Positions 1 through 49,091 of a stretch of DNA of 64,000 bases are shown piece by piece. This DNA is from Acidobacteriaceae bacterium (GTDB lineage Bacteria; Acidobacteriota; Terriglobia; Terriglobales; Acidobacteriaceae). The stretch spans positions 992,001 to 1,056,000 of the forward strand of contig DASZBM010000002.1 in assembly GCA_035944135.1 (NCBI GenBank), written 5' to 3'. Position 1 is the stretch's first letter, and every line of letters begins with the position of its first letter. The notes beneath the pieces are model-generated. The model searched no databases. It was not told where the DNA came from and saw nothing but the letters and a program-made list of their open reading frames with translations. The position numbers were made by a program, and so were the translations under genes.

Positions 1-1
1 G

Positions 2-1495
2 TACGGCATCCTGGCGACGCACTGGTACTGGATTGGCGCGATACCGGCGATGCTCTTTTTGGGCATCGTGATGATGCCCTTCTATTACATATCGAAGACG
101 CACTCGGTACCCGGCTACCTCCAATTGCGGTTCGGCGAGGGAGCGCGGGGACTCGCGGCGATCTCGTTCGGTTTCATGACGATCCTGATGTCCGGCGTGA
201 ACATGTACGCGATGGCGCTGGTGATGAAGGTCATCCTTGGATGGGACATCAACTTCTCCATCTGGGTGGGGGCGGCGACAGTCGCGCTGTATGTGATGTT
301 GGGCGGATTGCGGTCCGCGATCATCAATGAGGTGCTGCAGTTCATCCTGATCTGGGCGGGCGCGGCGCTGATTCCGATCCTGGGGTTGATCGAGGCCGGC
401 GGCTGGACGAACCTGAAGGCACAGATCGCAGTCAACGTGGGAAATACCACCTACACGCATATGTGGTCGACGCTCGGGCACTTCAAAGACAACCCCATGG
501 GAATTAACTGGGTCGGCATCGTCTTCGGGCTCGGCGCGATCATCTCGTTCGGCTATTGGACGACGGACTTTCTTGTCGTGCAGCGCGTGCTGAGTGCCCA
601 CAACCTGCGTGCGGCCAAGATGGCTCCGGTTCTCGGTGCGGCGTTCAAGATGGCCGTGCCACTTATCGTTATTGTTCCGGGCCTGCTAGCGCTCGGCGTG
701 CTACGTGACCCGAACACGCATCAGATTATTCATCTCGTTGGTCAGGACCAGGTGAGCGCGGCGCACCCGTACAGCTACAACGAGGTGCTTCCGCTGATGC
801 TGATCCGGTACTGCGGACCCGGTCTGCTGGGCCTTGGCATTACGGCTCTCGTTGCGGGCTTTATGAGTGGTATGGCTGGCAATGTTTCGGCGTTTTCGAC
901 CGTGTGGACCTACGACATCTACGGCGCGTATATGAACAAGAAGGCGCCGGATAAGCACTACGTGCTGATGGGCCGCTGGTCGACGATTGTCGGCATGCTG
1001 ATCTCGATCGGAACCGCGTACCTGGTGATGAATGCGGCGTCGATCATGGATTACGTGCAGGCACTGTTCAGCTTCTTTATCGCGCCTTTGTTCGGCACGG
1101 TCATTCTGGGCATGCTGTGGAAGCGGGCCACGAACTGGGGCGGCTTCCTGGGATTGCTCGCGGGTACGGCCTCATCGATTGGGATGTGGGTCTACACGAA
1201 CTTCGGCACTGCGGCACACAAGGCAGACGCGCTGGCACATATCGCACTTTCGCGCGATGCGCAGCCGATGGCCAACGACATGTTCCGGGCGTTGTGGAGC
1301 TGGATCATCTGCGTTCTGGTTACGATCATCGTCAGCTACATGACCACACCCAGGCCCGAAGCCGAACTGAATGGGCTTGTGTACGGCGCAACGGTGATTC
1401 CGGACGATGGCGCCACCACAATCTGGCAAAAGCCGATATTCTGGGCCTGCGTCGTCGCGGCGGTGTTCGTCGTGCTAAACATTATTTTCTGGTAG
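2..1495 (+). CDS. Sodium:solute symporter (SSS family), 5' end outside window
   Basis: This is a polytopic inner-membrane protein of the solute:sodium symporter (SLC5-like) family, which couples Na+ entry to uptake of sugars, amino acids or similar solutes. The reading frame is already open at the first bases, so the true start lies upstream. About 498 residues are visible, with roughly a dozen hydrophobic segments. Family-like features are the early GYLQLRFGEGAR stretch, the GGLRSAIINEVLQF segment and the FMSGMAGNVSAFSTVWTYDIY segment near the middle. An 80-codon membrane gene and a fucose/arabinose-isomerase-like gene follow in the same direction with short gaps, which makes a sugar substrate likely. 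The exact substrate is not readable from sequence. Confidence 0.9.
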   Translation, partial: YGILATHWYWIGAIPAMLFLGIVMMPFYYISKTHSVPGYLQLRFGEGARGLAAISFGFMTILMSGVNMYAMALVMKVILGWDINFSIWVGAATVALYVMLGGLRSAIINEVLQFILIWAGAALIPILGLIEAGGWTNLKAQIAVNVGNTTYTHMWSTLGHFKDNPMGINWVGIVFGLGAIISFGYWTTDFLVVQRVLSAHNLRAAKMAPVLGAAFKMAVPLIVIVPGLLALGVLRDPNTHQIIHLVGQDQVSAAHPYSYNEVLPLMLIRYCGPGLLGLGITALVAGFMSGMAGNVSAFSTVWTYDIYGAYMNKKAPDKHYVLMGRWSTIVGMLISIGTAYLVMNAASIMDYVQALFSFFIAPLFGTVILGMLWKRATNWGGFLGLLAGTASSIGMWVYTNFGTAAHKADALAHIALSRDAQPMANDMFRALWSWIICVLVTIIVSYMTTPRPEAELNGLVYGATVIPDDGATTIWQKPIFWACVVAAVFVVLNIIFW

Positions 1496-23544: not shown

Positions 23545-23563
23545 CGATACTTTGAGGAGATTC

Positions 23564-25485: not shown

Positions 25486-25494
25486 GAAAATGGC

Positions 25495-26487: not shown

Positions 26488-26504
26488 GAAGGAAAGAGGA
26501 AGGC

Positions 26505-27506: not shown

Positions 27507-27522
27507 GAGGGCTGACCGGGTG

Positions 27523-28320: not shown

Positions 28321-29043
28321 CAAGTTGGATTACGTTGGCTTTTGATGTCATTATATCGGTAAGGTGAAGTGTCAGATGGTCGTTTTCGACGCGAATGGCG
28401 GCAAGCGCCAATGTTTCGGGCGGGGACCGATCGGAACGATTCTCGCATAGGACCAGACAAGTGGGCTGCCTCAGATTCGATATCTCCCACAACGTCTTCC
28501 TCCACTCGCACTGTCAGGTAATCCAACCGCGCAGTGAGGGCTCGGGATGCGGTATTTCATGCAGATCCCCTCAACGCACGAAAGTAAGCCAGTGTCTCAG
28601 TCTGAATGCCCCTGAGACACCATTTACTCACCACTTCATTAACCCCGAGAGTTCGCACTTTTTCCCGAAAGCCCATTATTGTGAACACAGCGTCTACAAA
28701 GCGACGAACTGTTCCGGCCGGTCCAGCGCATATCCGATACCTTGCCAGGGGACTAGGTCACGGCTGTGATAGACGGTCCGGAAAATATTCAAACGAACTG
28801 GTGAAGGGTAGTAGTCATTTCACATTCGGACCACTGAAGTGCCCGGATTCATCCCGCCAAGCACCGGATTCTGATAGCTTTGAGCGCATGCGGCACATGT
28901 ACCCAGCAGCAGCCCTGTACACCAGACCATCGCCCAAATTCACACGAATACCAGCTCATTCGAATTGCTACAGTAAACGATAAACAAAGACCTCTTGGCG
29001 ACTACCGCCGTGAACAACCGACAAACCTTGAGAGGAACCTGGG
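28321..29043. other. 720-bp intergenic region, no gene supported
   Basis: This gap separates the divergent GntR gene and the phosphoesterase gene. Open frames inside it have no ribosome-binding site or protein-like composition. It contains a perfect 9-bp inverted repeat, GTGTCTCAG / CTGAGACAC (28592-28620, 11-nt loop), without a T tract on either side, so it is not an obvious terminator. Promoters for both flanking genes must lie here. Confidence 0.5.
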
Positions 29044-31002: not shown

Positions 31003-32018
31003 AAAACCTGCTGTGGGCCCTCGTTCTACTCGCGAGCACCGCGGCAGCCCAGGCATCGCCCGCGCCTTCGACGCTCGCGCGGGTACGCGCCTCCGGGATT
31101 GTCCACTGCGGGGTTATCGAGGATGACGCGGAATATTCCAACGAGGACGACCACGCCTCACGCGCCGAATTCGATGACAACCTGTGCAAGGGCATGGCCG
31201 TCGCGGCGCTCGGCCTAAACGCCAAAGTAGAGATACTCCGCTTCCTGGACGAAGACTCCGCCGTCGCCGCGCTGAAAAGCGGGAGCGTCGACCTTATAGC
31301 AACTCTCAGCTCGAACTCCGCCCACACATCCGACACAAGCCTTCTCCTTTCCCTTCCTGTCTTCTACGACGGCACCTCCTTGCTGACGGCGCGTTCGCTC
31401 CACATCAACAGCGTGCGCGCTCTCTCCGGTAGAAAAATCTGCTTCCTCGCCGAAACAGAAACCGAGCTTGCACTGCAACAATGGTTCGCCGCCCATCACC
31501 TCGACCTCCTTCCGTTCCCATTCCAGGAAGAGGGCGAAATGGAAGCCGCCTACGTGACCGGCAACTGCGCCGCAATCGCATCTGATCGAACGCGCCTGTC
31601 GCTACTTCGCGCATCGCTCGGCAAGCTCGCATCACAACACATCCTTCTGCCCACGCTGCTTTCGCTGCATCCGCTCGCAATGGCCACACGCTCCGACGAC
31701 CCCACGTGGTCGAGCCTGACCAATGCACTCATCTCCGTTCTTCTCGATGCGGAAGATCTCGGCATAAGCTCGCATGATCTCGCTTCGGCAGAAGCCGCAT
31801 CCAAACTGGCGGTCCAGACTTTCCTGCAATCCGCCCGCGCCTTCGGCGGCACACTCGGCCTTCGCCCAACATGGGCCGCTGACGTCCTGCAATCCATCGG
31901 CAACTATGGGCAGGTCTACGACACCACATTCGGTCCCGGATCGCCGCGCGCTCTGGACCGCTCCGTCAATCGCGTTCGTGACCGCGGCGGTCTGCTCGCT
32001 CCCGCCAGCGTGCCCTGA
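30999..32018 (+). CDS. Orphan periplasmic solute-binding protein (family 3-like)
   Basis: This 339-residue exported protein has a cleavable signal (ending AAAQAS). Its bilobal fold resembles amino-acid-type solute-binding proteins: LARVRASGIVHCGVI opens lobe 1, LCKGMAVAALG and LKSGSVDLIATLSSN follow, and ALSGRKICFLAETETE opens lobe 2. Family 3 proteins normally start the mature part with a similar LxxVRxxGxLxxGV motif. No ABC permease or ATPase is nearby, so transport is not implied. It may present a ligand to another system or act as a sensor. Translation is coupled to the upstream phosphoesterase (GTGA overlap). Confidence 0.75.
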   Translation: MKNLLWALVLLASTAAAQASPAPSTLARVRASGIVHCGVIEDDAEYSNEDDHASRAEFDDNLCKGMAVAALGLNAKVEILRFLDEDSAVAALKSGSVDLIATLSSNSAHTSDTSLLLSLPVFYDGTSLLTARSLHINSVRALSGRKICFLAETETELALQQWFAAHHLDLLPFPFQEEGEMEAAYVTGNCAAIASDRTRLSLLRASLGKLASQHILLPTLLSLHPLAMATRSDDPTWSSLTNALISVLLDAEDLGISSHDLASAEAASKLAVQTFLQSARAFGGTLGLRPTWAADVLQSIGNYGQVYDTTFGPGSPRALDRSVNRVRDRGGLLAPASVP

Positions 32019-35007: not shown

Positions 35008-36897
35008 TCACTGCGTGTGGGTTGCTGGAGGCACCGCCTTGCTACCCATGGCAACGGTCTTCAGCACTTTGCCGCCCTCTTGAACGACGTATAGAGAATT
35101 TGCGGCGAGATCATTCAGTGTGTCATGCGTTCCCGACGGCCAGAGGATCTCGACTGCGTCGACTTTGGCTGCACCATCCAGGCCGAAATGGACGCGCAGA
35201 TCATTCTGGGAGAAGTAGCTGCCGCCGCTGCGTACCTCTTCCACTTGCCGCAAAGGCTGCTTGCCTATCCCTGACTTCTCCTGTGGGGCTGTGGTTGCGG
35301 TCACGGTGATGCGTGCACCTACACCGGTGCGGTTGCTCTTGGTTCCAACGAGCCTCAACTTGATCCAGTTACGCGCGATGGTGGAGTCACAGCGCAGGAG
35401 TTGAGGTGGTGCATTGACACAATTGACGACGACATCCATATCGCCATCATTGTCGTAATCGCCGAATGCGCAGCCACGTGCCGGTGCCGCATCGGTGACG
35501 CCACTTCCAGCAATATTGGTAACCTCCTCGAACTGGCCGTTGCGAAGATTCCGGTAGACGTACTTGTGCTCCGCGTAAGGGGCGTCAAGGTGCGAGGTAT
35601 CGACTTCCGGGTAGACGTGACCATTTGAGATAAAGATATCGAGCCAGCCGTCGTTATCAAGATCGATGAAGCCGACTCCCCAGCCGAGATATCGTGTGTT
35701 GATACCAAGGCCGCTAAGGTAAGTGTGATCCTCGAATGTGCCGTCGCCGAGGTTCTGGTAGAGAGAGTCCGTATCTCCGGCGAAGTTTGTCTTCACAATG
35801 TCGAGCAGGCCATCGCGGTTGAAGTCGCCAACGGCCACCCCCATTCCGGCCTGCGGCTTCCCGTCGGGCGAATAGGCGACCCCAGACTCGATTGCAACGT
35901 CTTTGAAGGTGCCGTCCTTCTGGTTCTGATACAGCGTGGCCGCGGTCGAGTCATTCGCCACATAGATGTCGGGCCACCCGTCGTTATCGAGGTCGGCGAC
36001 CGTGACACTCAGGGCGTACGTTCCGATGGTGCTCCACATGCCTGCTTTTTCGCTGACGTCTACAAAGGTCCCGTCGCCCCGGTTGTGATACAGGATGTTC
36101 TTTCCTCCTTCAAGGCCCGGTGGACCACATGCGACCTGAATTCCCTTGTAGGAACAACCGGCGGCCTCCGGCAGCGGGGCGGTCTTTATATCGAAGTCGA
36201 TGTAGTTCGCGACGAAGAGGTCAAGGTGGCCATCCTTGTCGTAGTCGAGGAAGGCGCAGCCCGTATTCCAACGTGTCCGGGACTGCGCAAGACCCGCCTT
36301 GACTGTCACGTCGGTAAATGTGCCGTTGCCATGGTTCTTGTATAGGATGTTCTGCCCGTAGTAGCTCACGAACAGATCGTTCAATCCATCGTTGTCGTAA
36401 TCTCCGACACAACAGCCCTGGCCCCAGCCGCTGCGGGTCATTCCACTCTTCGCCGTAATATCGGTGAATGTTCCGTCACGATTGTTTTTAAATAGGCGGC
36501 TTATCGGTTCCTGACCCTTCGGAAACTCACCATCCAGCCGAGTGCCGTTGACCAGAAACAGGTCGAGCCAATCGTCGTGGTCGAAGTCAAAAAACGCAAC
36601 ACCGCAACCGGTGGTCTCCAACAGATAACGGTTCTTGTGCTCATTTCCAAAGACGGTTTTAGCTTGTAACCCACTCTGCTTCGCGCCATCGACGAAGCTG
36701 TAGCCCAGTGGTGTTCCAACAACGGGAGAAGGAAGCGAACGGGGTGCGGGCCGGGGTTTTGCATCGAAGACCGGCCGAGACCCTATGTTCTGCTGCTGTA
36801 TTTGCTGAGCCGGTGCCGCCAGCTTCAAGACGTCTTCGAACGACAGCACGAGTGCCGTCCGCGAAAGCGACTGGATAAATCCCCGCCTTGACCACAT
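35008..36897 (-). CDS. FG-GAP / ASPIC-UnbV domain protein with Tat signal
   Basis: This exported protein of about 629 residues starts MWSRRGFIQSLSRT, close to the twin-arginine consensus. It contains about seven FG-GAP (VCBS) repeats with Ca-binding loops of the type DYDNDGLNDLFV, DLDNDGWPDIYV and DLDNDGWLDIFI, which should fold as a beta-propeller. The C-terminal ASPIC/UnbV domain spans about residues 505-610 (NWIKLRLVGTKSNRTGVGARITV, VEILWPSG). The ATG at 36897 is chosen over an upstream GTG because of GGGAGAG eight bases before it and the Tat motif. It is last in a run TPR, ASPIC-UnbV, ASPIC-UnbV. The function of this family is unknown; binding of glycans or a surface role is only a guess. 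Confidence 0.88.
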   Translation of the reverse strand: MWSRRGFIQSLSRTALVLSFEDVLKLAAPAQQIQQQNIGSRPVFDAKPRPAPRSLPSPVVGTPLGYSFVDGAKQSGLQAKTVFGNEHKNRYLLETTGCGVAFFDFDHDDWLDLFLVNGTRLDGEFPKGQEPISRLFKNNRDGTFTDITAKSGMTRSGWGQGCCVGDYDNDGLNDLFVSYYGQNILYKNHGNGTFTDVTVKAGLAQSRTRWNTGCAFLDYDKDGHLDLFVANYIDFDIKTAPLPEAAGCSYKGIQVACGPPGLEGGKNILYHNRGDGTFVDVSEKAGMWSTIGTYALSVTVADLDNDGWPDIYVANDSTAATLYQNQKDGTFKDVAIESGVAYSPDGKPQAGMGVAVGDFNRDGLLDIVKTNFAGDTDSLYQNLGDGTFEDHTYLSGLGINTRYLGWGVGFIDLDNDGWLDIFISNGHVYPEVDTSHLDAPYAEHKYVYRNLRNGQFEEVTNIAGSGVTDAAPARGCAFGDYDNDGDMDVVVNCVNAPPQLLRCDSTIARNWIKLRLVGTKSNRTGVGARITVTATTAPQEKSGIGKQPLRQVEEVRSGGSYFSQNDLRVHFGLDGAAKVDAVEILWPSGTHDTLNDLAANSLYVVQEGGKVLKTVAMGSKAVPPATHTQ

Positions 36898-36954
36898 TCC
36901 GTTCACTCTCCCATTTCCGGCTGCGCACAAGTATAGGCAGCGACGTGTACGTTC

Positions 36955-39237
36955 TCAATGACTTGGAATGTGCCAAATGATGAGCGTTCCGTTACCCTCA
37001 CGCAAGGTATAACGGGTGTCGACTTTTACATTGCGCATCCGGTCAACGATTCCGGTTGCTGGCCAGGTCACCGACAGGTCATCCACGATCGTTGCTGACC
37101 CAAGGCCGATATGCTGCTCGATTGGATTACCGCCAAAACTTGAACCAAAGCCTACCGTGCGAAAGATCTGGCGTCGCTTGCCATGCGAGTCGCGCACAGT
37201 GACATCGATTACAGCACCGAAGGCGAGACGATTCGACCGTACGCCTTCGAGCTTCAGCGTGATCCAGTGATTGCTATTGCCAGGATTCTTGTAGAGCGCG
37301 CTCTGAAAAATGTCGCTCGGCAGTGCGCCGCCCATCTCTTCGAACACGTCTTCAAACCCTGTGCGATGCAGATCGGCGAAGGAGACCGCGTGGCCCTTCT
37401 GCAGATTTCCGAAATTGCCGGCCGTGGTTACATCTTGAAAGGTCTGGCCGTTGTTGTTGCGAAACATGCGGTTCGGCAGGAGTGCTGTAAGCGTGGAGTC
37501 GCCGGTCCCTAGGTAAACGTCAAGCCACCCATCATTGTCGAGATCGCCGAAGCTCGCGCCCATGGTAAGGATGGCGCGGTTGAGATGCATCTCGTCCGTC
37601 ACGTCACGGAACGTACCGTCGTGCATATTGCGATAGAGCCTTGGCAGTTCCGCATTGGTGCGCCGTCCCAACTCGAAGGAGCCTACATCCGCGTTTCCCG
37701 GGGTGAAGTAGCCTGCTACAAAGATGTCGGGCCAGCCGTCGTTGTCGTAATCAAAAAACCAAGTGGCGAAGCTATCGTGCTGTTTGTCGACTCCTGCTGT
37801 AGCGGTCACATCTGTGAAGCGCCAACCTTTACGGAGATCGTGCGGGTCCTTCGGCCCATCATTACGGAAGAGATGATTGCGGCCGTTCATCACGGATACG
37901 TAGAGGTCAGGACGCCCGTCACGGTTATAGTCTCCCCAGGCCACGCCTTTTACGAAGCCGAGATCCCCGATGCCACTGGCCTCGCCGATCTCCGTAAATG
38001 TGCCGTCGCCATTGTTGTGGAAGAGTAGCGAACGATGCGGATCGCTGGGCTTTGACTCATACCCGATGAACAGATCCAGCCAGCCATCGCCGTCGAAGTC
38101 CGCCCAAGCCGCCGTCTGTGTTGGGCCGCTTACTAGCAGGCCTGCCTCTTCGGTTACATCGTCAAACGTGCCGTTGCCGTTGTTGCGCAGCAGCGAGAGA
38201 GGGTAGGCTCCAGCTTTACCCCACCAACCGCCGCGAAGTACTAATACGTCCGGATGACCGTCATTGTTGTAATCAGCCAGCACCAGATTTAAGCCGCCTG
38301 TCTCTCCTATCAGGCCGGCGCGACGCGTAACATCGCGGAACGTACCGTCGCCGTTATTATGAAACAGGTGCATCTGGTCATTTGGCCCACACGAGCTAAC
38401 CATCACATCAAGCCAGCCATCCCCATCGAAGTCCTCCACCAGGACGCCACCCGCGTGGCCAGTGACGTCCAACCCTTCCGACGCAGCAATCTCGGGGAAT
38501 TCCGGAAACTTTGCATCCGACGCAAACAGACTCTCTGGCATGAGCCATCTAGCGGGTACATCCTTCGGGTATCTGCCTAGCTGCATATAGGCGACATTCA
38601 GCAGCCACTGCGATTGCGCATCATCCTGATCTATCTCGAGCAGCGCAGTGAGCTCCCGGACTGCTCCTTCTGCTCCACGCGTCATCTGGTGTTTTGCGCT
38701 GGCGCGCAGCGGGAAGAGGCACGAGGTTTGTCCGTGCATCTCGAGACAGTTTTCCTGTTCCCCCAGACGCAGATAAGCCAGCGCCATAAGGGCGCCGAGC
38801 TCATGCATCTCCGGCTTCGTCATGGAGGTGCTGCTCGACATCCAGGCTGCCCGCACTGTCTCCAGTTGCGCTATGGCGCCCTCATTGTCGCCGGAGTAAA
38901 GCATCTCGCGAGCAAGCTGTTCGCGCACGACGGTGGCGTCGCCCAGGCTTAGAGCGCGTGACTTCAGCAACTCCTGGTAATAGTTCACACGGAGCGCGGC
39001 CTTGTTTGTATCTGTCTTCCAATCTGTCGCGGCAAAGGCGGCGCGCAGACGTTGCGCCATGCGCATTGTGCCCGGAGACTGATAGATGGGGTCCGTATCA
39101 GCCGTTTTGGAGGGCACGCTGACGGAGCCGATCGCCGGTGCCTGCATCTGATGCGACATCTGAGCGTGCAGAACCAGCGACGAGGCGAGAAAGAAAGCTG
39201 CGAGTAATGTCACCGGCAAAGGGAAGAGCTTTCTCAT
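36955..39237 (-). CDS. Large FG-GAP / ASPIC-UnbV protein with helical N-terminus
   Basis: This secreted protein of about 760 residues has a clear signal peptide (MRKLFPLPVTLLAAFFLASSLVLHA). A helical, TPR-like region follows at about residues 45-220. At least six FG-GAP repeats come next, with DFDGDGWLDVMV, DYNNDGHPDVLV, DYNRDGRPDLYV and DYDNDGWPDIFV among them. The C-terminal ASPIC/UnbV domain begins HWITLKLEGVRSNRLAFGAVIDV. The ATG at 39237 is preferred because the signal peptide begins there, 10 bp after the upstream TPR stop. ATG 39261 overlaps that gene and is an alternative. It is 57 bp upstream of the second ASPIC-UnbV gene in the same direction. Confidence 0.87.
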   Translation of the reverse strand: MRKLFPLPVTLLAAFFLASSLVLHAQMSHQMQAPAIGSVSVPSKTADTDPIYQSPGTMRMAQRLRAAFAATDWKTDTNKAALRVNYYQELLKSRALSLGDATVVREQLAREMLYSGDNEGAIAQLETVRAAWMSSSTSMTKPEMHELGALMALAYLRLGEQENCLEMHGQTSCLFPLRASAKHQMTRGAEGAVRELTALLEIDQDDAQSQWLLNVAYMQLGRYPKDVPARWLMPESLFASDAKFPEFPEIAASEGLDVTGHAGGVLVEDFDGDGWLDVMVSSCGPNDQMHLFHNNGDGTFRDVTRRAGLIGETGGLNLVLADYNNDGHPDVLVLRGGWWGKAGAYPLSLLRNNGNGTFDDVTEEAGLLVSGPTQTAAWADFDGDGWLDLFIGYESKPSDPHRSLLFHNNGDGTFTEIGEASGIGDLGFVKGVAWGDYNRDGRPDLYVSVMNGRNHLFRNDGPKDPHDLRKGWRFTDVTATAGVDKQHDSFATWFFDYDNDGWPDIFVAGYFTPGNADVGSFELGRRTNAELPRLYRNMHDGTFRDVTDEMHLNRAILTMGASFGDLDNDGWLDVYLGTGDSTLTALLPNRMFRNNNGQTFQDVTTAGNFGNLQKGHAVSFADLHRTGFEDVFEEMGGALPSDIFQSALYKNPGNSNHWITLKLEGVRSNRLAFGAVIDVTVRDSHGKRRQIFRTVGFGSSFGGNPIEQHIGLGSATIVDDLSVTWPATGIVDRMRNVKVDTRYTLREGNGTLIIWHIPSH

Positions 39238-39247
39238 GACTGGGAGC

Positions 39248-40279
39248 TTAGTGCGGTTCATCGCCCGTCGGTTGGCTGGCCGGGTGCAAGCGTTGCACCG
39301 CGGCAAACTCGCGGCTGGCATCTTCTTTCCTTCCGACGGCGCGGTAGGCTTGGCCAAGCAGGTTACGCGTGACGTAATTGGACGGGTCCATCGCGCGTGC
39401 ATGCTCCAGCATCGTCACAGCGCCGACCGCATCGCCCTGCCTCAATCTTGTTTTGCCCAGCAGGATATAGGGCCCGGTGGAGTGGGGTTCAAGAAGAATG
39501 TCCTCCTCGAGGACACGGCTTGCGTCCTCCAACTTCCCTTCGCGCAAATATGCATCGCCCAGGCGGTCGTACACAGATCCTTCCATCGGATTGCGGGCGC
39601 GCTCCGCTTCGAATTCAGCGATAGCAGCATCCGTGTGTCCAGCGGCCAAATCGAGTTCGCCCAGGAGTTCATGCGCGAGCGGAATCGCCGGATCGATTTC
39701 CAAAGCTTTGTGTGCGAACTGGTCGGATATGGGAAGGTAGTCGCGTCTCAATAACATTCGCGCGGCGACGAGATAGCCCGCCGCACTGTCAGGAGCCACG
39801 CGAAACTGGTTGGCGAAAGCTCGGCGAGCGTCGTCCCAGCGCGACGTGTCCATGTAGCAGAGGCCAAGGATGTAATTCGGATCGGTCTCACCGCGGGTGG
39901 AGGCGGGCGACTGCTCGAGCAGAGGAATTGCGTCTGCCGGGTGACCCAGGCGGAACAGCACAAGTCCCCGCATCTGAGCGGCTTCCATGTCGCCGGGGTC
40001 TGCCGCAAGAGCCGCAGCCAGCGCAGCGTCGGCGCCGTACAGATCACCCTTGGCGTATAGCGCGAGCCCTTGCAACCGGTCCAGGCCACGCACTGCCGCT
40101 CCCGAAGCGCGCACCCGTGCCACTGCAGCCAGTGCCGCATCAGGATGTCCCGTGTCGATCGATTTGCGAATGCTTTCTGGCGAGTCCAGGGCAGCCGCGG
40201 AGGGCGCCGCAGGATTCTGCGCCATATCTATAGGGCCGTAGAGACTCAAGCAAAGCAACAGCAGGAATTTCCTCACCAC
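39248..40279 (-). CDS. Secreted TPR-repeat protein
   Basis: This 343-residue protein has an N-terminal signal (RKFLLLLCLSLYGPIDMAQ) and about eight tetratricopeptide-like helix pairs covering most of the mature part, for example DMEAAQMRGLVLFRLGHPADAIPLLEQS and GSVYDRLGDAYLREGKLEDASRVLEE. TPRs mediate protein contacts, so it may organise the two ASPIC-UnbV products encoded downstream. The start is one of two adjacent GTG codons, with GGAGAGG just upstream. A TACAAT -10-like box lies about 25 bp before it. The receptor terminator upstream suggests the TPR gene heads its own operon. Confidence 0.85.
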   Translation of the reverse strand: MVRKFLLLLCLSLYGPIDMAQNPAAPSAAALDSPESIRKSIDTGHPDAALAAVARVRASGAAVRGLDRLQGLALYAKGDLYGADAALAAALAADPGDMEAAQMRGLVLFRLGHPADAIPLLEQSPASTRGETDPNYILGLCYMDTSRWDDARRAFANQFRVAPDSAAGYLVAARMLLRRDYLPISDQFAHKALEIDPAIPLAHELLGELDLAAGHTDAAIAEFEAERARNPMEGSVYDRLGDAYLREGKLEDASRVLEEDILLEPHSTGPYILLGKTRLRQGDAVGAVTMLEHARAMDPSNYVTRNLLGQAYRAVGRKEDASREFAAVQRLHPASQPTGDEPH

Positions 40280-40319
40280 GTACCTCTCCCGCGGCTTGGA
40301 TTGTACGTTGTGCGCGCCA

Positions 40320-40351
40320 GAAAGAATAGGAGAGGAGACCTCGTCCCCTCC
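40320..40351 (-). terminator. Probable terminator of the second TonB receptor gene
   Basis: On the minus strand GGAGGGGA pairs with TCCTCTCC (one G-T wobble) around a 7-nt loop and is followed by TATTCTTTCT. It begins about 20 bp after the receptor stop codon. The T tract is interrupted, so efficiency may be moderate. Confidence 0.6.
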
Positions 40352-40371
40352 CCTATGGGTGCCTGTCGAGC

Positions 40372-43300
40372 TTAGAACTGCAAGCGCAGCGTGAACTGCA
40401 ATTGCCGCGGTTCCGATCCGTCAGGGAATGGTCCGCCACCGATCTGACCGGCATTGCTTGAGTCGATCGTGCCGTTGGGGGTTCCGAAGTTGATGTGGTT
40501 GAAAGCGTTATACGCATCCATGCGGAACTGGGCCGTGTAGTGTTCGTAGAAGGTGAAGTTCTTCATCAGCGACATATCCGCCTTCCAGAAGCCAGGGCCC
40601 CAGGCGGTATTGCGACCAACGTTGCCGATGGTATCGGCGGCTGGCTCGGTGAAAGCACCACCCAACGTCACCGGATCGTAAGCGCGCACAGTGCTCACAC
40701 CGGGCGTGCCGCTGTAATGCTTCTTCAACGCGCTTGCGTTGCCGTTCACTTCACAAGGTGCGTTGCCCGGAACGTCGTTCCCGCATTTCGAGTAGCCCAG
40801 CGTGAACGGAAGCCCGCTGTGAATCAGCACGATTGGACTGATTTCCCAACCGCCCACGATGTAGTCGGCGGCCCTGCTGTGGTTGAGGTACATGCCTTGC
40901 CTGCCGAACGGCAGCTTGTACAAGCCATACGCGGTGAACGCATTCCGGCTCACCGCGCTGTCGTTGCCAATCACAGCGGCCTTGTTCCAGGTCGCGAAGG
41001 ACGACTGCGAGGACAGCGCGTGCTGGTACGCATACGCCAGGTTGTAACTCAGACCATGCCAAGGTGCCTGGGCCAGGCTCACCTGCAGCGCGTTGTAGTG
41101 GGTGTCCTGATCATCCCCGTAGTAACTGATGTCTTGATTCCACATGCACGGTCCGCCGCACGCCGGCAGGCTACCCCCGACATACCGGCGTAGCTGATTC
41201 TGCACGTTGGTAGCGCCCTGCAAAGAACCTGAAACCGGCACTCCACTGACGCAGTTGCCCGCTGCGGCCGCGCAATAGAGCTGAATCAGGCCCTGATGGA
41301 ACACGTTGTTGCTGTCCGTGTACGGTTGATCTCCAGGCTCGTTGTCATAGTGAAGCGCAATCTGCTGGCCGCCGCTGACGATGGAGCTGTACTGCGCGGG
41401 CAGGAAGAGCGCCTCTTCGTTCGGATTTGTGTTGTTGCCGTCGCCGTCGCTCAGCGTGTGCGTGCCCTTGTTGCCCACGTACGCTGCGGTGATCGACATG
41501 GTAGTCGTAATCGCCCGCTGCACTGAGATGTTCCACGCATCCAGCGTCGGCAGACGTTCGGTGAACGGACGCGCTTTGACGTTGGTGAACTGGCCCACAG
41601 TCAGGCCCACAGGGTTCGACGGCGTCTGCGTTCCCGGGACAATCGCCGTGATTGGAATCTGACCACTGGAGTTAGGCTGCACCGGGCTGTAGTTCGTCAA
41701 GCTCGTTGCACGGCCGCCCTGCGTGCTTGCAGGGTTATCCAATTGGAATGCGTAGGTCGCATAATTCCCTGGCGAATTGATGGACTGGTTCGCCAGAACA
41801 GGGATGTTCTGCGTCACAACATGACCGAATGTCGAACCGAAAACACCCAGGTCAAAGCTGCGCCCATAACCGGCGCGGATGACCGTCTTCGAACCGATTT
41901 GGTACGAAAGGCCCATGCGCGGGTTGAACGGAAACTTCGGAGCGGCTACGCCCATATTCAGGGGAACGCTGCCTGCTCCGGCTACGTTGATATCGCCGGT
42001 AGACAGGTTCAGCAGTGCACCATTGTCCGTTCCGTTTACCCGCTCCGGAGCGTAATACTCATAACGCAGACCGTAGTTCGCGGTCAGCTTCGGAGTCACC
42101 CGCCACGTATCCTGTGCGAAAAAGAAGTCACGTGGCTGAAATTCCTTGGCATTGGTCTCGTTGGAAGTACCCACGTACCGGTTGTATGCGGTCACGTCAC
42201 CCAACACAAACGTTGCAAAGCCGAGACCAGTGCCGCCCGAACCGTTCGAGGTTGGGCCGGAGCCGAAGTTGTTCACGCCCGTGCGGTCGTTATCAGAGGG
42301 CACACGCAGGTTCCGCGCGTAACGCAGGTCGATACCAAATTTGACTTCGTGCGTGCCGAGTACTCGAGTCCAGTTGTTTACCAACTGGAACTGATCTTCA
42401 TGCTCCTTGAGCGGGCAGTTGCAACGGTCCACGTTGAGACCTGCGCCGTATTGAGCGCCGGCTGCCTGACCGTTGTTGCCGCCGGAGTCACCCGGAGCCT
42501 TCGCGCCGGAGATTCCGATGTCGGCAACATCCAGATCCGGCGCGCCGAACTGCTGCGCGATGGTGTACCCGCCCCCACTGAGGTTCTCACCCAGGATCGG
42601 AAGATTGGAATTGCCTTGGTCATATTTCGATGTGTTAATGCCGTAGCGGAAGTAGCCCAGACGGACCTCCGTCAGCCACTTCGGCGATATAGCAAAGTCC
42701 ATGCCCATCGCCAGCGAATCGTTGCTGCCGGCGGACGTGCCCCCGTAGCCACCGATGCCGAAGCCTGCACCGCCGGCATTGCCAAACAGTGTTTTGCCGG
42801 TCAGGGTGTCGGTAAAGCGGCTGAAGCGCACGAAGGCGTGGATCTTACCGCTTATCTGCGAGTCGCCGCGAACGTCCCACTGGTTGCTATTGAAGATGCC
42901 GGTGCCGGTCCCAGAGTAGTTGTTGGTTAGCGTGGCCTGGTTGATGTTTGGGGCATATGGCTTCAGCAGCGCAAACAGCTTCATCGCCGTCGGCGAAATC
43001 AGCGACGCCGGAATCACGTTGCCGGGCCAGGGCGATCCGTTCGCCACCCCGTTCACCGTCGCGCCCGTGTTGTTGTAGAGCACGTGACCCGGACCTGCCG
43101 CGAGGTATTCACTGAAGTCGCAACCCGGAGTCGCGACTCCGTTCACAACGGGAGTCACCGTACCGAGACAGGAGTTGATCACGTTCTGCGTAGGCACGGT
43201 CATGTTCGCGCCCGTGCCTACCTTCTGGCGCACGCCCTGGTAGTCGCCGAAGAAGAAGAGGCGATCCCTCCAGATCGGACCACCGATAGATCCGCCGAAC

Positions 43301-44181
43301 TGGTTCTTAAGTGCTTTGGGGAACGGCTGGCTCCTTGGCTGAGTAAATGGGTCAACAGCCAGATTGGCGCCGCTCTCGCGATTGTCGAACAGCGTTCCGT
43401 GGAAGTTGTTCGAACCTGACTTGGTCTGGACGGTAATGACCGAAGATACTGCCTTCCCAAACTCAGCGTCGAAATTTTGCGTCGTCAGTTTTGTCTCCGA
43501 CATGGAATCGGAGTTCGGATTGATGACGATGATTCCGAGGATCGCGTCCTGATTATCCGTGCCGTCCAGCGTATAGTTCACGCCGCCAAATGCCTGTCCG
43601 TCGATCTGGATCTGCTTAGAACCCTGCGGATCCTCGCTGGCGGCGTGCGACCAGCCTAGTTGCTGCGCACCGGGCAGCAGCAGTTCTAGGTTCGTGAAGT
43701 TGTGGTCCGGAATCGGTAGGCTCTCAATCTCTGGCGCGCTAAAGATCGTCGAGACGTCTGCCTTGTCTGTCTTCAACTGCGGAACAGCATCCGCATTCAC
43801 TTCGATCGTCTCACCACCGCCGCCAACAGCAAGCTGTGCGGTCACCTTCGGCGCCGAGTCGGCGAACACCTGAATATTCGTCTGCTCGAAATTCTTGAAG
43901 CCCTGCGCGCTGACCTTCACGTTGTAGTGATCCGGAATCAGTTGCTGGGCCGTGAACTCGCCAGCCGAATCGGAGGTAAGCGTCGTGCTGGTTCCCTTCT
44001 CAACATCTGTGATCGTGACGGTCGCATTGGGAATCGCGGCGCCGCTCGTATCCTGCACCGTGCCCTGAATGCTTCCATAGACCGCCTGCGCTCGCGCTTG
44101 CGTGCCCAACACACTCACGGTAGTCAGCGTTATGCCTGCCGCCAGCAACAGCCCACTCTTCTGCAGCCATGTCCCTAACAT
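40372..44181 (-). CDS. TonB-dependent receptor with carboxypeptidase-regulatory-like domain (Oar-like)
   Basis: This outer-membrane receptor of about 1269 residues has a signal peptide ending TQARAQ. A carboxypeptidase-regulatory-like domain follows (GSIQGTVQDTSGAAIPNATVTITD), then a plug with NFDAEFGKAVSSVITVQTKSGSNNFHG, and a large barrel ending LQFTLRLQF. The start at 44181 is fixed by AGGAGG seven bases upstream, so an ATG ten codons earlier is rejected. It is divergently paired with a secreted GH13 glucosidase, and the 431-bp space between them contains palindromic sites. Import of malto-oligosaccharides, trehalose or a related glucan product is therefore a sensible guess. Confidence 0.9.
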   Translation of the reverse strand: MLGTWLQKSGLLLAAGITLTTVSVLGTQARAQAVYGSIQGTVQDTSGAAIPNATVTITDVEKGTSTTLTSDSAGEFTAQQLIPDHYNVKVSAQGFKNFEQTNIQVFADSAPKVTAQLAVGGGGETIEVNADAVPQLKTDKADVSTIFSAPEIESLPIPDHNFTNLELLLPGAQQLGWSHAASEDPQGSKQIQIDGQAFGGVNYTLDGTDNQDAILGIIVINPNSDSMSETKLTTQNFDAEFGKAVSSVITVQTKSGSNNFHGTLFDNRESGANLAVDPFTQPRSQPFPKALKNQFGGSIGGPIWRDRLFFFGDYQGVRQKVGTGANMTVPTQNVINSCLGTVTPVVNGVATPGCDFSEYLAAGPGHVLYNNTGATVNGVANGSPWPGNVIPASLISPTAMKLFALLKPYAPNINQATLTNNYSGTGTGIFNSNQWDVRGDSQISGKIHAFVRFSRFTDTLTGKTLFGNAGGAGFGIGGYGGTSAGSNDSLAMGMDFAISPKWLTEVRLGYFRYGINTSKYDQGNSNLPILGENLSGGGYTIAQQFGAPDLDVADIGISGAKAPGDSGGNNGQAAGAQYGAGLNVDRCNCPLKEHEDQFQLVNNWTRVLGTHEVKFGIDLRYARNLRVPSDNDRTGVNNFGSGPTSNGSGGTGLGFATFVLGDVTAYNRYVGTSNETNAKEFQPRDFFFAQDTWRVTPKLTANYGLRYEYYAPERVNGTDNGALLNLSTGDINVAGAGSVPLNMGVAAPKFPFNPRMGLSYQIGSKTVIRAGYGRSFDLGVFGSTFGHVVTQNIPVLANQSINSPGNYATYAFQLDNPASTQGGRATSLTNYSPVQPNSSGQIPITAIVPGTQTPSNPVGLTVGQFTNVKARPFTERLPTLDAWNISVQRAITTTMSITAAYVGNKGTHTLSDGDGNNTNPNEEALFLPAQYSSIVSGGQQIALHYDNEPGDQPYTDSNNVFHQGLIQLYCAAAAGNCVSGVPVSGSLQGATNVQNQLRRYVGGSLPACGGPCMWNQDISYYGDDQDTHYNALQVSLAQAPWHGLSYNLAYAYQHALSSQSSFATWNKAAVIGNDSAVSRNAFTAYGLYKLPFGRQGMYLNHSRAADYIVGGWEISPIVLIHSGLPFTLGYSKCGNDVPGNAPCEVNGNASALKKHYSGTPGVSTVRAYDPVTLGGAFTEPAADTIGNVGRNTAWGPGFWKADMSLMKNFTFYEHYTAQFRMDAYNAFNHINFGTPNGTIDSSNAGQIGGGPFPDGSEPRQLQFTLRLQF

Positions 44182-44394
44182 CGCGTGCCTCCTGAGCAAA
44201 TCCGTCAACATTCATCGCGGGCCCGAGTTCGCGTGTCTTGTGCTGCTCGTTAGGGCGGAATTCCTCCCGTTCAACCGGTCCCGTGCGCTCTCCCAACTCC
44301 AGACGAGCACAATTCGGTGTTCTAATTTTCGATTCACATTACGCTCGCCACCCGGAAGTCTGTCAACACGTTTCTGCAACGAAGTGCATTGTGT

Positions 44395-44410
44395 TTCTCC
44401 ATATGGAGAA
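44395..44410. promoter_or_regulatory. Perfect 16-bp palindrome TTCTCCATATGGAGAA
   Basis: TTCTCCATATGGAGAA is fully self-complementary over 16 bp, without a spacer, and sits between the divergent receptor and GH13 genes. This is typical of a dimeric repressor or activator site. No regulator gene is adjacent, so the binding protein is unknown. Confidence 0.55.
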
Positions 44411-44436
44411 TGGGAAGTGAAGATTCGACCCTACGC

Positions 44437-44464
44437 AATATGGAAGTGAAAGTCTGTCCATATT
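44437..44464. promoter_or_regulatory. Second CCATAT-type inverted repeat
   Basis: AATATGGA and TCCATATT are perfect 8-bp inverted copies separated by 12 bp. Each arm contains the same TCCATAT half-site as the 16-bp palindrome about 40 bp away. Together they look like clustered binding sites for one regulator. Confidence 0.5.
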
Positions 44465-44612
44465 CTTGGTGCAGAACCTGACGTCCTGTGGCGCGGAGAA
44501 GCCGCTTCTCCAGCGCATTCAATTCACCGGAAGACGACTCAACGTGATTACAGATTGCTCAGCAAATCAAACGAACTGTACTATCGGTCGCGTCCTAACC
44601 GAGGAGCCCTGC

Positions 44613-46463
44613 ATGCACTCACGTCCCTTGTTCCGGTCCACTGCACGTCGCCTGCGGTTTGCCTGTTTCTCTGCTGCTATTTCGGCTTTACTTGGCTTCA
44701 GCATCCTGCCCGCTCCCGCGCAGGATCGCACTCCAAGATCATCCGAAGTCACGCACGCCGCCGACCCCTGGTATCGTCACGCGCTGGTCTACGAGATCTA
44801 TCCCCGCAGCTTTCAGGACTCCAACGGCGACGGAATCGGCGATCTCAACGGCATCACGACGCGACTGCCATACCTGCACCATCTTGGCGTCGATGCGATC
44901 TGGATCTCACCCATGTACCCATCGCCGCAAGTGGACTTCGGTTACGACATCTCGGATTACGAGGCAGTCGATCCTCAGTACGGCACCCTCGCCGACATGG
45001 ACCATCTCATTGCCGCCTCCCACAAGGAAAACATTCGCGTTCTGCTTGACATGGTGATGAACCATACCTCCGACAAACACAAGTGGTTTATCGAGGCCGC
45101 CAGCTCGCGAACCAATCCAAGACACGACTGGTATGTGTGGAACGATGGCAAGCCCGCAGACGCGCCCGGCGTTACAGCCTACGAGCGCAAGTACGAGCAC
45201 GAGGGCCGCGTTCCGCCCAACAACTGGGTCTCGCTCTTCGGCGGCAGTGCCTGGGAATGGGTGCCTGCCGTGCACCAGTTCTACTATCACAAGTTTTACA
45301 AGCAGCAACCGGACCTGAACTGGCGCAATCCGGAGGTCGAGAAGGCCATGTTCAACGTGATGCGCTTCTGGCTCGATCGCGGTGTCGCCGGTTTTCGTCT
45401 CGATGCCATTCCCACCTTGTTTGAAGATCCACAGCTGCGTGATGAGCCGGACCTTGGCGGCACAAACGCGCAGGGCGATCCAAACCTCAATGACGAATAC
45501 ACGAACATGTTGCCCGAGGTGCACGACGTGCAGCGCCGCATGCGCAAGCTGGTCGACAGCTATCCGGGGGACCGCGTGCTCATCGGCGAAACCTACCTGC
45601 CGAACACGCGTGAGCTATTGAAATGGTATGGCGGCGACAAGCAGGACGAGTTGCAGCTTCCCATGGACACGCTCGTTGGATTTCACTCCGAGGGTGGCGG
45701 CCCCAGCTCTGCGAACGTGGCTCTCGACCTTACCCACTTCCGCACAACTCTGACGGACATGCAGACCGAACTGGGCAGCAATTGGCCACTCCTGGTCTTT
45801 GACAATCACGACAACCCGCGCAGTTGGGATCGCTTCGGCGACGGCAGGCACAACTTCGAGATTGCCAAATTGATCGCCACCGTGTTGCTCACCACCCGCG
45901 CCACCGCGCTCACCTACTACGGGGCGGAAATCGGCATGGTGACTTCGACGCCTCCGCGCAAAGAAGACGTGAAGGACCCCATCGGCATCACCGGTTGGCC
46001 GAAGGAAAAAGGCCGTGACGGAGAACGCACGCCCATGCAGTGGACACCGGGACCACAGGCCGGATTCAGCACGAACCCGCACACATGGCTGCCCGTTGCA
46101 TCGGACTACAAAACTGTGAACGTCCAGACGGAAGAGCAGGAACCGAACTCCGAATTGAACTGGTTTCGCAACCTCACGATGCTGCGTCGAACCAATCCGG
46201 CGCTGCACAATGGCAAGGAAGTGATGATCGACCAGAGCGATTCAAGCGTTCTCAGCTACGTGCGCACCGATGGAGCATCAAGCGTGGTGGTCGCGCTGAA
46301 CTTTACAGACCAGCCTCATGCGATAACGCTCGATGTCGACACCGCCGGCGTGCATGGAAAATCCGTGAAGACTCTCATGAGTGATGTTCCGTCACTGCAG
46401 GGCGCAACCAGCCTGAATGTCACACTGCCGCCATACTCAAGCTGGATCGCCAGCGTGCAGTAG
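44613..46463 (+). CDS. Secreted GH13 alpha-glucosidase/amylase-type enzyme
   Basis: This 616-residue GH13 enzyme has an N-terminal signal peptide (ending PAPAQ). The barrel begins at WYRHALVYEIYPRSFQDSNGDGIGDLNG, typical of alpha-glucosidases and oligo-1,6-glucosidases. The catalytic residues are nucleophile Asp264 (GFRLDAIP), acid/base Glu326 (LIGETYLP) and Asp400 (FDNHDNPRSW). A C-terminal beta domain follows. The start at 44613 has GAGGAG at good distance; longer in-frame extensions lack one and would bury the signal peptide. It should hydrolyse alpha-glucosidic bonds in the periplasm or outside. The convergent gene encodes a second glucan-type hydrolase. Confidence 0.92.
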   Translation: MHSRPLFRSTARRLRFACFSAAISALLGFSILPAPAQDRTPRSSEVTHAADPWYRHALVYEIYPRSFQDSNGDGIGDLNGITTRLPYLHHLGVDAIWISPMYPSPQVDFGYDISDYEAVDPQYGTLADMDHLIAASHKENIRVLLDMVMNHTSDKHKWFIEAASSRTNPRHDWYVWNDGKPADAPGVTAYERKYEHEGRVPPNNWVSLFGGSAWEWVPAVHQFYYHKFYKQQPDLNWRNPEVEKAMFNVMRFWLDRGVAGFRLDAIPTLFEDPQLRDEPDLGGTNAQGDPNLNDEYTNMLPEVHDVQRRMRKLVDSYPGDRVLIGETYLPNTRELLKWYGGDKQDELQLPMDTLVGFHSEGGGPSSANVALDLTHFRTTLTDMQTELGSNWPLLVFDNHDNPRSWDRFGDGRHNFEIAKLIATVLLTTRATALTYYGAEIGMVTSTPPRKEDVKDPIGITGWPKEKGRDGERTPMQWTPGPQAGFSTNPHTWLPVASDYKTVNVQTEEQEPNSELNWFRNLTMLRRTNPALHNGKEVMIDQSDSSVLSYVRTDGASSVVVALNFTDQPHAITLDVDTAGVHGKSVKTLMSDVPSLQGATSLNVTLPPYSSWIASVQ

Positions 46464-46487
46464 CGAAATCAAGACCAACGGCCCCGC

Positions 46488-48968
46488 CTACCAGCGGAGC
46501 GTGACCATTCGCGTGCTGTATTGATCTCCCGAAGCCTCGAAGACAACGTGCAGTACTTTCTGTGTCGGCATCTCCGCGCCCTCTACTCTCACCGCCGCAG
46601 AGCTATGCTCATGCACGGGCAGATCGAACGCTGAGCCCGCGGGCGCTTCGAGCTCCAGTTTCAGCATGCGCGGCTCACGCGTTTCGCTCAGCACCTTCAG
46701 CCCGCGAGTGCGCGCGCCACGGAGCGGCAATCCGTGCGGCAGCTCTACCTCGACCACTGACGTAGGCACGCGCATTGTCTGGCCATCACCTGCCCCGTCC
46801 AGCTTCACGGCAGGCCCGCTCCGTTGTTCCATCCTCACGATCCACTCCGCAGACGTGCGCTCAAACAAGAGGTCGACCGTACTCGCCCCTACATGCACGC
46901 GGCGCAATTCTGCCCGGTCCCAGCTGGCAGGCAGTTGAGGAGCGACACGGAGAGTGTGTGTGAGACCGTTCACTTCCAGGCCGAACATCCCACGCACAAT
47001 CGGCGTGATGACCATAGCCGAAGACCAGAGCTGGTGGCTGGTGCTTCGCCCAAACGGTTCGTAAAACTCGCCTGAAAGAAGCTCGGTCACCGCTCCAGGA
47101 TCTTGCGCAAACGTCAGATCTGCGTTCTGCATCGTGAGAGCATAGCCTGCTAGCGGATGTCCGCCGCGATACTCTGCGATGGCGGCCCACCCGGTGAACA
47201 GCGGCCACACTGAGCCTTCGTGGTAACTCATCGGGTCGAATCGCGCATCATCCTCTGCAACCGAGCGCGTTCCCCAGTCGGTGTCGAAACGATGCGAAGC
47301 CCAACCCCTGAGCGCAGCTTCCTTATGTTCGAGCCCTTTGCCATCGGTCCACCACGCAACGGCCGGGAAGATCGTGTCCGTCCGGTCGTCTCCCTGCCTG
47401 TTATCGCTGAACGCATAGCGACCGTCGCCGGCCCGAAAATATTCCTTCTCAATCGTGCCGCGGATCTTACCCGCCCGCTCTTGCGCGCCCTTTGCGACAT
47501 CGGTCTCACCGAGCTCGTGAGCCAGCCCGGCCATGGCAGTCGAGGCTTGCGCGTCGAGCAACGCAAGATAAATCTCCTGCTGCGGAAACACGCCTTTCCA
47601 GCTTTCCACCCAGCCGGTTCCCTGCGCATTATCGTAGATGCCATCGCCATTGGCGTCGTGCGTGGTTTCAAACTCCCACGCCTTTCGAACCGTCTCTGAC
47701 TGCTCGTGTAAGAACGCCGTATCACCACTGGCACGCACATAATCCTCCATGGCCAGCAAAAACAAAGGAGTGGCGTCCGCCGCCGCGTATTGGTACGGCA
47801 GCGCTGCCCAATTTGTATTCTGGGCGGTCTGCGAACGCTCGTGCATGATCTTGCCGTCACCACGTTGATGGAGTGCAAGGTAGGCTAGCTCCGAACGCAC
47901 ATCGGCAAAGTCACCATAGCTGTCTAGCGCGAACAGAGTGTAGAGCGCATCACGACCGAAGAACCATCCAAAGCCCGGCCGGGCGGAATCTCCCGAGGCA
48001 TAGTAACCTGCGACGAATGCTGTGCCGCCGTCCGGAGTGCGCGCACGCAATTGTTCAATCGAAGTCTCTGCCCAACCAAACTCTGAATTTAACGTGGGGT
48101 CAGGTGAATCCAGATCCATGCGCTCGTTTTCCCGCGCCTGGTATTGCGCGGCATGAGATGCGTACAAGGAAGGAAGTTGCGCATCGAGTTCAGCGAGCTT
48201 CCCACCTAGCGCCGCCGACGAGGCGTGCTCTTTATCCTGACCGATGGCCATCAGTAGCGGAAATAGTTTGCCTCGATCCCTGACGGGATCGACATGCAAG
48301 ATCAATTCCAGCGGATGAGTTTGCGGTCGCTCTTGATAAGGAGCCAGAATGCCCGGCTGGCTCCCCGGAATTGTGAATGCTCCTGAAAAGCTATCAAAGT
48401 CACTGTGCAACACATAGTAACCGCTGCCATCACTTGTCTTCACCCACTCCGGCGAAGGATTACCACTGCTTAACTGCGGCCACATGGCGCGCAGATCCCC
48501 TTGGAAACGGAATACCAGTTCGGTCGGATGAAGCGCATCAATGGAGAACAGCACAACGGGGCCTGTCCCCTCCGGGGCCTTATCTGGCGAGAACATGATC
48601 TGACGAACGACGAGCGCGATATGCGAGTAGGTGATCGCAGTGTGATCGGGACGCACCTCGATCTCGCGCGCCATGTCATTCAACTTCAGTGGGACGGGAT
48701 AGCCTTCAACGCGTGCCTCAATGGTCATGTGACTAAGCAGCTTGACCGGGAGTACCCACGCCTCTAGCTCTCCGCTCTGCTGCCCAACTAACACGCCCCG
48801 TTCCCCTGCGACCGTAAACGGCTCTTGATCTTCCACGGGGCGCACAATAACCGCTCCATCGCCAGTAAAAGAAAGCCCAGTTATTGTGGTCCATTGCAGG
48901 TCCTGCCCGCCCGCGATCGCACAGATCGGGAAGAGGATCGAGGCCAACACCCAGTTCTTTGCCAACAT
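46488..48968 (-). CDS. Secreted (alpha/alpha)6-barrel glycoside hydrolase, amylo-glucosidase-like
   Basis: This exported protein of about 826 residues has an N-terminal beta domain and a central helical barrel from about residue 300. FGWFFGRDALYTLFALDSYGDF is typical of amylo-alpha-1,6-glucosidase/GH63/GH15-like enzymes, followed by GKIMHERSQT, GTGWVESWKG and MSYHEGSVWPLFTGW. Acidic residues in these motifs are candidate catalytic groups. The ATG at 48968 is preferred because AAGGTGG lies five bases upstream and a signal peptide begins there. ATG 48995 gives a longer, more basic N-terminus and is possible. It ends 24 bp from the convergent GH13 gene, which supports a shared role in alpha-glucan breakdown. 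Confidence 0.82.
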   Translation of the reverse strand: MLAKNWVLASILFPICAIAGGQDLQWTTITGLSFTGDGAVIVRPVEDQEPFTVAGERGVLVGQQSGELEAWVLPVKLLSHMTIEARVEGYPVPLKLNDMAREIEVRPDHTAITYSHIALVVRQIMFSPDKAPEGTGPVVLFSIDALHPTELVFRFQGDLRAMWPQLSSGNPSPEWVKTSDGSGYYVLHSDFDSFSGAFTIPGSQPGILAPYQERPQTHPLELILHVDPVRDRGKLFPLLMAIGQDKEHASSAALGGKLAELDAQLPSLYASHAAQYQARENERMDLDSPDPTLNSEFGWAETSIEQLRARTPDGGTAFVAGYYASGDSARPGFGWFFGRDALYTLFALDSYGDFADVRSELAYLALHQRGDGKIMHERSQTAQNTNWAALPYQYAAADATPLFLLAMEDYVRASGDTAFLHEQSETVRKAWEFETTHDANGDGIYDNAQGTGWVESWKGVFPQQEIYLALLDAQASTAMAGLAHELGETDVAKGAQERAGKIRGTIEKEYFRAGDGRYAFSDNRQGDDRTDTIFPAVAWWTDGKGLEHKEAALRGWASHRFDTDWGTRSVAEDDARFDPMSYHEGSVWPLFTGWAAIAEYRGGHPLAGYALTMQNADLTFAQDPGAVTELLSGEFYEPFGRSTSHQLWSSAMVITPIVRGMFGLEVNGLTHTLRVAPQLPASWDRAELRRVHVGASTVDLLFERTSAEWIVRMEQRSGPAVKLDGAGDGQTMRVPTSVVEVELPHGLPLRGARTRGLKVLSETREPRMLKLELEAPAGSAFDLPVHEHSSAAVRVEGAEMPTQKVLHVVFEASGDQYSTRMVTLRW

Positions 48969-49091
48969 GTATGCCACCTTCAAAAGCCGCTTCATTCTAA
49001 CTTGCAGGCGTTTCCCTTTAGACCGTAGCATCAGACCATTGCCACAGTAGATCGACACGAGGCATCACGCGTCATCCGTAGACAATCGACT

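Follow-up and report, generated by a model that had tools for sequence, protein, structure and literature searches.

The divergently transcribed genes for a TonB-dependent receptor and a GH13 alpha-glucosidase are separated, in most of the Acidobacteriaceae relatives that keep this pair, by a region carrying a TGWCATGWCA element, a candidate for the ancestral operator of the divergon, and this element together with its apparent absence from the genome analysed here is the firmest new point of our comparison. In the window, which denotes the whole 64,000-nt stretch of DNA that was analysed, the region between the two genes carries two repeats with a common TCCATAT half-site, and we consider these CCATAT repeats, with a probability of roughly 0.4, to be a lineage-specific operator candidate of this single locus, which is about as likely as their having arisen by chance. 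If functional, they would form a lineage-specific operator pair for a putative dimeric regulator and, lying just upstream of the predicted receptor promoter, might control the receptor and perhaps also the GH13 gene.

The host genome is that of an Acidobacteriaceae bacterium near Granulicella, and it groups with Granulicella and Bryocella. As the earlier note had described, the receptor and the secreted glucosidase are divergent and have one intergenic region in common, and this divergent pair is kept in nine relatives (L034, L041, L043, L044, L071, L074, L010, L011 and L015, of which L044, L071, L010, L011 and L015 belong to genomes G016, G027, G014, G007 and G021, respectively). The receptor is of the Oar type. 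The alpha-glucan character proposed for the locus is also supported, the GH13 protein being related to alpha-glucosidases and sucrose isomerases and being followed downstream by an MGH1-like hydrolase with a distant resemblance to debranching enzymes, which adjoins the GH13 gene and is present in several of the syntenic relatives. A conserved glucan locus, comprising the receptor, TPR, FG-GAP/UnbV_ASPIC and GH13 proteins and often the MGH1-like hydrolase, extends over positions 35008-49058 of the window and recurs in the nine relatives. No SusD-like protein was seen among the proteins examined at this locus, and the TPR and FG-GAP proteins might therefore fill such a role. Genes of this Acidobacteriaceae locus are also found in public records titled Rhodanobacteraceae (L034 and L041) or Verrucomicrobia (L042), and as the L042 genes appear to belong to a genome (G018) placed in the genus of the window, those record titles look wrong.

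Table 1. Features of the receptor/GH13 locus and its surroundings, in window positions; promoter boxes are predictions.
Feature	Position	Strand	Description
Two FG-GAP/UnbV_ASPIC proteins	36955-39402 and 35008-36930	minus	relatives in the same locus elsewhere
Phosphoesterase and 339-aa gene	29044-32018	plus	beside the cytochrome-TPR gene (32685-34967)
TPR protein	39248-40279	minus	downstream of the receptor, kept in the locus
Oar-type TonB-dependent receptor	40372-44211	minus	CarboxypepD_reg plus OMP_b-brl_4
Terminator-like stem-loops (two)	44216-44233 and 44305-44322	plus	intergenic; 0.4 expected
Receptor -10 region	44336-44343	minus	predicted; TAATGT (19 bp spacing) or CGTAAT (17)
Receptor -35 box	44361-44366	minus	predicted; TTGACA
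Perfect 16-bp palindrome TTCTCCATATGGAGAA	44395-44410		arms 44395-44402/44403-44410, no spacer; repeat search
Inverted repeat AATATGGA-N12-TCCATATT	44437-44464		arms 44437-44444/44457-44464, perfect 8+12+8; repeat search
Third inverted repeat GGAGAAGC-C-GCTTCTCC	44495-44511		repeat search
CGTGATTACA	44543-44552	plus	7/10 match to TGWCATGWCA; precedes the GH13 -10 box by 36 bp
GH13 -10 box	44579-44584	plus	predicted; TACTAT, by comparison with TATAGT/TATATT before the relatives' GH13 genes
GH13 alpha-glucosidase	44613-46463	plus	signal-peptide-like start; domain and sequence comparison
MGH1-like glycoside hydrolase	46488-49058	minus	distant debranching-enzyme/glucoamylase relative
Further perfect 16-bp palindromes (three)	4105, 43126 and 58057		

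The palindrome, the 8+12+8 repeat and their common half-site proved exact to the base when the repeats were searched for again independently, and both CCATAT repeats lie between the start of the receptor gene (ATG at 44181 or 44211, minus strand) and that of the GH13 gene (ATG at 44613, plus strand). The GGAGAA/TTCTCC arm of the palindrome recurs in a third inverted repeat that the earlier note does not mention. Comparison of ten divergons indicated where the promoters probably lie: a TTGACA is present on the receptor strand in all 10, with more than one candidate in L043, L071, L010 and L015, and a weak -10 region follows 16-19 bp past it, while a generic sigma-70 scan at its threshold returned no site for either the receptor or the GH13 promoter. 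Relative to the putative receptor -35 box, counted from its promoter-proximal edge, the palindrome is centred ~42 bp upstream and spans 34-50 bp.

The strongest alternative is that an unremarkable palindrome and an unremarkable inverted repeat happen to lie in an A+T-richer intergenic region and are bound by no protein, an account that we regard as quite possible, if short of probable. Each repeat taken alone is ordinary. The window holds four perfect 16-bp palindromes versus a mean of 1.63 in 30 dinucleotide shuffles, and in real DNA (the window plus L034-L103, 901,479 bases) 44 were counted, which corresponds to 3.1 per 64 kb; when the 401-bp intergenic region was shuffled 5000 times, a palindrome of at least 16 bp arose in 35 shuffles and some inverted repeat of the form 8+1..30+8 in 710. 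Against chance stands the half-site common to the two repeats, which is moderately unusual by a test chosen with the pattern already in view: a palindrome no shorter than 10 bp having a 7-mer in common with an inverted repeat was obtained in 1 of 5000 shuffles of the 401-bp region, the statistic being picked post hoc, and in real DNA an inverted repeat sharing a 7-mer lies within 130 bp of 4 of the 44 palindromes, namely that of the window and three others, two of which are purely G+C pairs. The recurrence of the GGAGAA arm in the third repeat and the position of the repeats between two predicted promoters likewise argue against chance.

The distribution of the repeats, in turn, speaks for chance, as they are unconserved and no other intergenic site was found within two mismatches. 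Conservation in orthologous intergenic regions, on which the earlier note had made its own proposal depend, was not observed: neither TCCATAT nor ATATGGA occurs between receptor and GH13 in any of the nine syntenic relatives. Across 75 GH13 loci, some of which share a genome and five of which have less than 400 bp upstream, the half-site was detected at the locus of the window only; the second GH13 copy of the genome (L030, 65-70% identical) has none upstream, and no nucleotide homologs of the intergenic region were returned from 60 relatives (E 0.001). A whole-genome search for the 16-mer within two mismatches recovered the site itself and one place inside an open frame, exact matches to its 10-bp core TCCATATGGA were located at four places, the other three all inside open frames, and ATATGGA-N8..18-TCCATAT matched the copy in the window alone. 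As a second intergenic site within two mismatches is absent, no regulon and no autoregulatory site was found, and the operator set across glucan genes that had been anticipated did not emerge from the genome scan. The single occurrence of the inverted-repeat pattern, and the confinement of the other copies of the 16-mer and its core to open frames, also count in favour of an operator peculiar to this locus.

Family-wide recurrence of the 16-mer as an operator was also considered and rejected. With at most one mismatch it is present in 20 of 300 family genomes including that of the window (19 others), versus 5 of 300 for a reversed control, but open frames of 235 codons or more enclose 16 of the 19 places retrieved, four of which encode a recurring protein stretch (ALLERV...LDMEN), and the copies are thus mostly coding sequence. 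TCCATATGGA was likewise rejected as a published palindromic site, its occurrence in the literature being a cloning primer where examined.

In most of the relatives, one or both predicted promoters are flanked by TGWCATGWCA. With at least 9/10 matching positions, the element precedes the GH13 -10 box by 36-42 bp in seven of the nine relatives (L041, L043, L044, L071, L010, L011 and L015), at 36-37 bp in all but L071, where the distance is 42 bp; L034 carries an 8/10 match at 36 bp, and the best score in L074 is 6/10. On the receptor side, matches of at least 9/10 are placed 44-46 bp from the -35 box in five of the nine (L041, L044, L010, L011 and L015), with an 8/10 match at 45 bp in L043, and the palindrome of the window partly overlaps this receptor-side slot (44-56 bp), which counts in favour of its being an operator. 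At least one 10/10 copy is present in 6 of 9 relatives versus 2 of 2000 shuffled regions, a difference that is overstated because the motif was read from those same sequences. Five Edaphobacter-type loci that played no part in deriving the motif show, at 36-37 bp ahead of the -10 box, scores of 9/10 (L039), 8/10 (L040), 7/10 (L036 and L062) and 5/10 (L038). The eight perfect copies comprise two of TGTCATGACA (L044 and L011), four of TGACATGACA, one of TGTCATGTCA and one of TGACATGTCA. In the window, CGTGATTACA is possibly a remnant of the element; shuffled regions, too, most often reach 7/10 as their best score. When TGWCATGWCA-N27-TATANT was searched for with one mismatch, matches were obtained in 7 of 28 genus genomes, three of them at the divergon (G007, G014 and G021), and none in the genome of the window. 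The other four (G002, G005, G010 and G015), of which that in G015 lies 6 kb from the hybrid regulator gene described below, differ little in number from the three matches of the control, and a wider regulon in the genus was rejected on this ground.

The ancestral element was possibly read by a GntR/LacI-hybrid (AraR-type) regulator since lost from the genome of the window. The gene of such a regulator lies between receptor and GH13 in five Edaphobacter-type loci (L036, L038, L039, L040 and L062); the L038 protein contains PF00392 (GntR HTH, residues 48-111) and PF13377 (LacI-type C-terminal domain, 245-401), and the other hybrid regulators were assigned by similarity to it. Eight of the nine syntenic relatives yielded near full-length counterparts (48-55% to an Edaphobacter-type query): in G016, G007 and G021 the gene is found 10-12 kb past the receptor and is transcribed divergently from an FG-GAP gene adjoining the cytochrome-TPR gene, in G027 and G014 it lies on another contig, and the L041, L043 and L034 genomes hold it as well. 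The L074 genome, a metagenome assembly that may be incomplete, gave no match. Because identity among the regulator relatives is only about one half, and several genomes hold two of them, they are not proven to be orthologs. The genome of the window holds no close homolog, the best match (37%) covering residues 200-389, half the length, and the frames that hold its nine GntR matches measure 130-307 aa versus at least 373 aa for the hybrids; beside its cytochrome-TPR gene stand the phosphoesterase and the 339-aa gene, where three relatives have the FG-GAP gene and the hybrid regulator. No candidate regulator was found beside the receptor and GH13 genes of the window, its one GntR match (27523-28323) being of the FCD type. 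This gene is near the relatives' regulator position, but it belongs to another subfamily and adjoins a sugar-acid cluster (22519-27506), and it was judged unlikely as a replacement. Together with this regulator gene, the apparent sugar-acid catabolic cluster extends over 22519-28323, and its products, named by eye from the translations, are a permease and enolase-type, amidohydrolase, oxidoreductase and fumarylacetoacetase-like proteins.

The link between this regulator and TGWCATGWCA is weak. An element of at least 9/10 accompanies the hybrid regulator in 7 of 8 regulator-positive versus 0 of 2 regulator-negative divergons, with a table probability of 0.067 that ignores kinship; a comparison of 15 genomes gave 5 of 5 with and 0 of 10 without the regulator, but it is not taken as support, since a close receptor homolog is missing from most of the negatives as well. 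Ahead of the regulator's own gene, TGWCATGWCA (at least 9/10) occurs at 3 of 24 loci (L116, L158 and L160), the shuffled rate being 4.4% per 540 bp or ~1 in 24, and autoregulation through this element was rejected on that count. All six loci L155-L160 carry TTTGTCTATACAT upstream of the hybrid regulator, with 10/10 matches to TGTMTAKACA versus 6 in 2400 shuffles. It fits the HutC-type GntR consensus GTMTAKAC and is possibly an autoregulatory site, and its presence there instead of TGWCATGWCA weakens the connection between regulator and element.

Taken one step further, the lineage-specific operator pair could stand in for an ancestral control exerted through TGWCATGWCA elements beside both promoters. 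The lineage would then have lost an AraR-type regulator along with its TGWCATGWCA sites, kept the receptor, TPR, FG-GAP and glucosidase genes, and come under another regulator acting through new CCATAT palindromes, a chain of events that we consider unlikely as a whole. The CCATAT repeats themselves would matter only if shown to be bound by a protein, and a possible regulator replacement is the interesting residue. Apart from this, the comparison yields a testable element and a testable GntR/LacI hybrid for the conserved Acidobacteriaceae receptor/alpha-glucosidase locus, as well as one genome, that of the window, in which both seem to have been lost.

The earlier note had expected the repeats to serve as operators of an alpha-glucan utilisation locus under a regulator encoded elsewhere, with LacI-type proteins as candidates, a proposal that, taken as a LacI-controlled regulon, now looks quite improbable. 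The divergent receptor and alpha-glucosidase genes and 11 LacI-HTH (PF00356) matches over the cut-off in the genome would suit it, but none of these matches lies within the window or is tied to the CCATAT site. When ~3 kb around each of them and around each of the nine GntR matches (six over the cut-off) were inspected, no 16-bp site with up to three mismatches was detected, and a LacI-type regulator for the set is thus unsupported. The nearest 16-mer at these loci has four mismatches and precedes the L177 HTH by 488 bp; half-sites are found upstream at 2 of the 20 loci (L176 and L186), TCCATAT and TTCTCCA both lying within 500 bp before the HTH at L176, and such single half-sites as at the L176 and L177 loci are about at chance level. 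The lack of any other intergenic site within two mismatches and of a half-site upstream of the second GH13 copy also argues against a regulon, and the palindrome is without the central CG that is usual in LacI operators. Least probable is a structural DNA or RNA element, that is, a cruciform or a hairpin in an untranslated leader, since, although TTCTCC-ATAT-GGAGAA could by eye fold into a hairpin with 6 bp in the stem and four bases in the loop, and the second repeat into an 8-bp stem, the arms are too short for a stable cruciform and the repeats lie upstream of the -10 boxes predicted for both genes, hence outside both leaders.

A search of literature that takes in few subscription journals, aimed at the control of TonB-receptor or sugar loci in Acidobacteria by operators or regulons, listed a Solibacter genome paper and nothing else. 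As with LacI-family sugar operators, a symmetric site lies in the window between genes for a transporter and a hydrolase; unlike them, this site is unconserved and lacks the central CG, no regulon was found, and no LacI match lies in the window. The GntR site consensus is given as NyGTNxACNy, of the form GT-Nx-AC (PMC4494728), and the repeats of the window do not match it, TTCTCCATATGGAGAA having CC-N4-GG at that place. The regulator of the relatives is alike in make-up to AraR of Bacillus subtilis, in which a GntR HTH is likewise combined with a LacI-type sugar-binding domain. The ara box of AraR reads At(T/A)tGTaCGTAcaa(A/T)T (PMC4218819), and the TGTCATGACA form of the relatives' element, which accounts for only two of the eight perfect copies, has its GT-N4-AC shape, whereas the CCATAT palindrome is without GT-N4-AC and its genome without a close AraR-type regulator. 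In GntR-family divergons, single or double sites are described as controlling both operons (PMC4494728), and the two TGWCATGWCA sites of the relatives fit the two-site arrangement.
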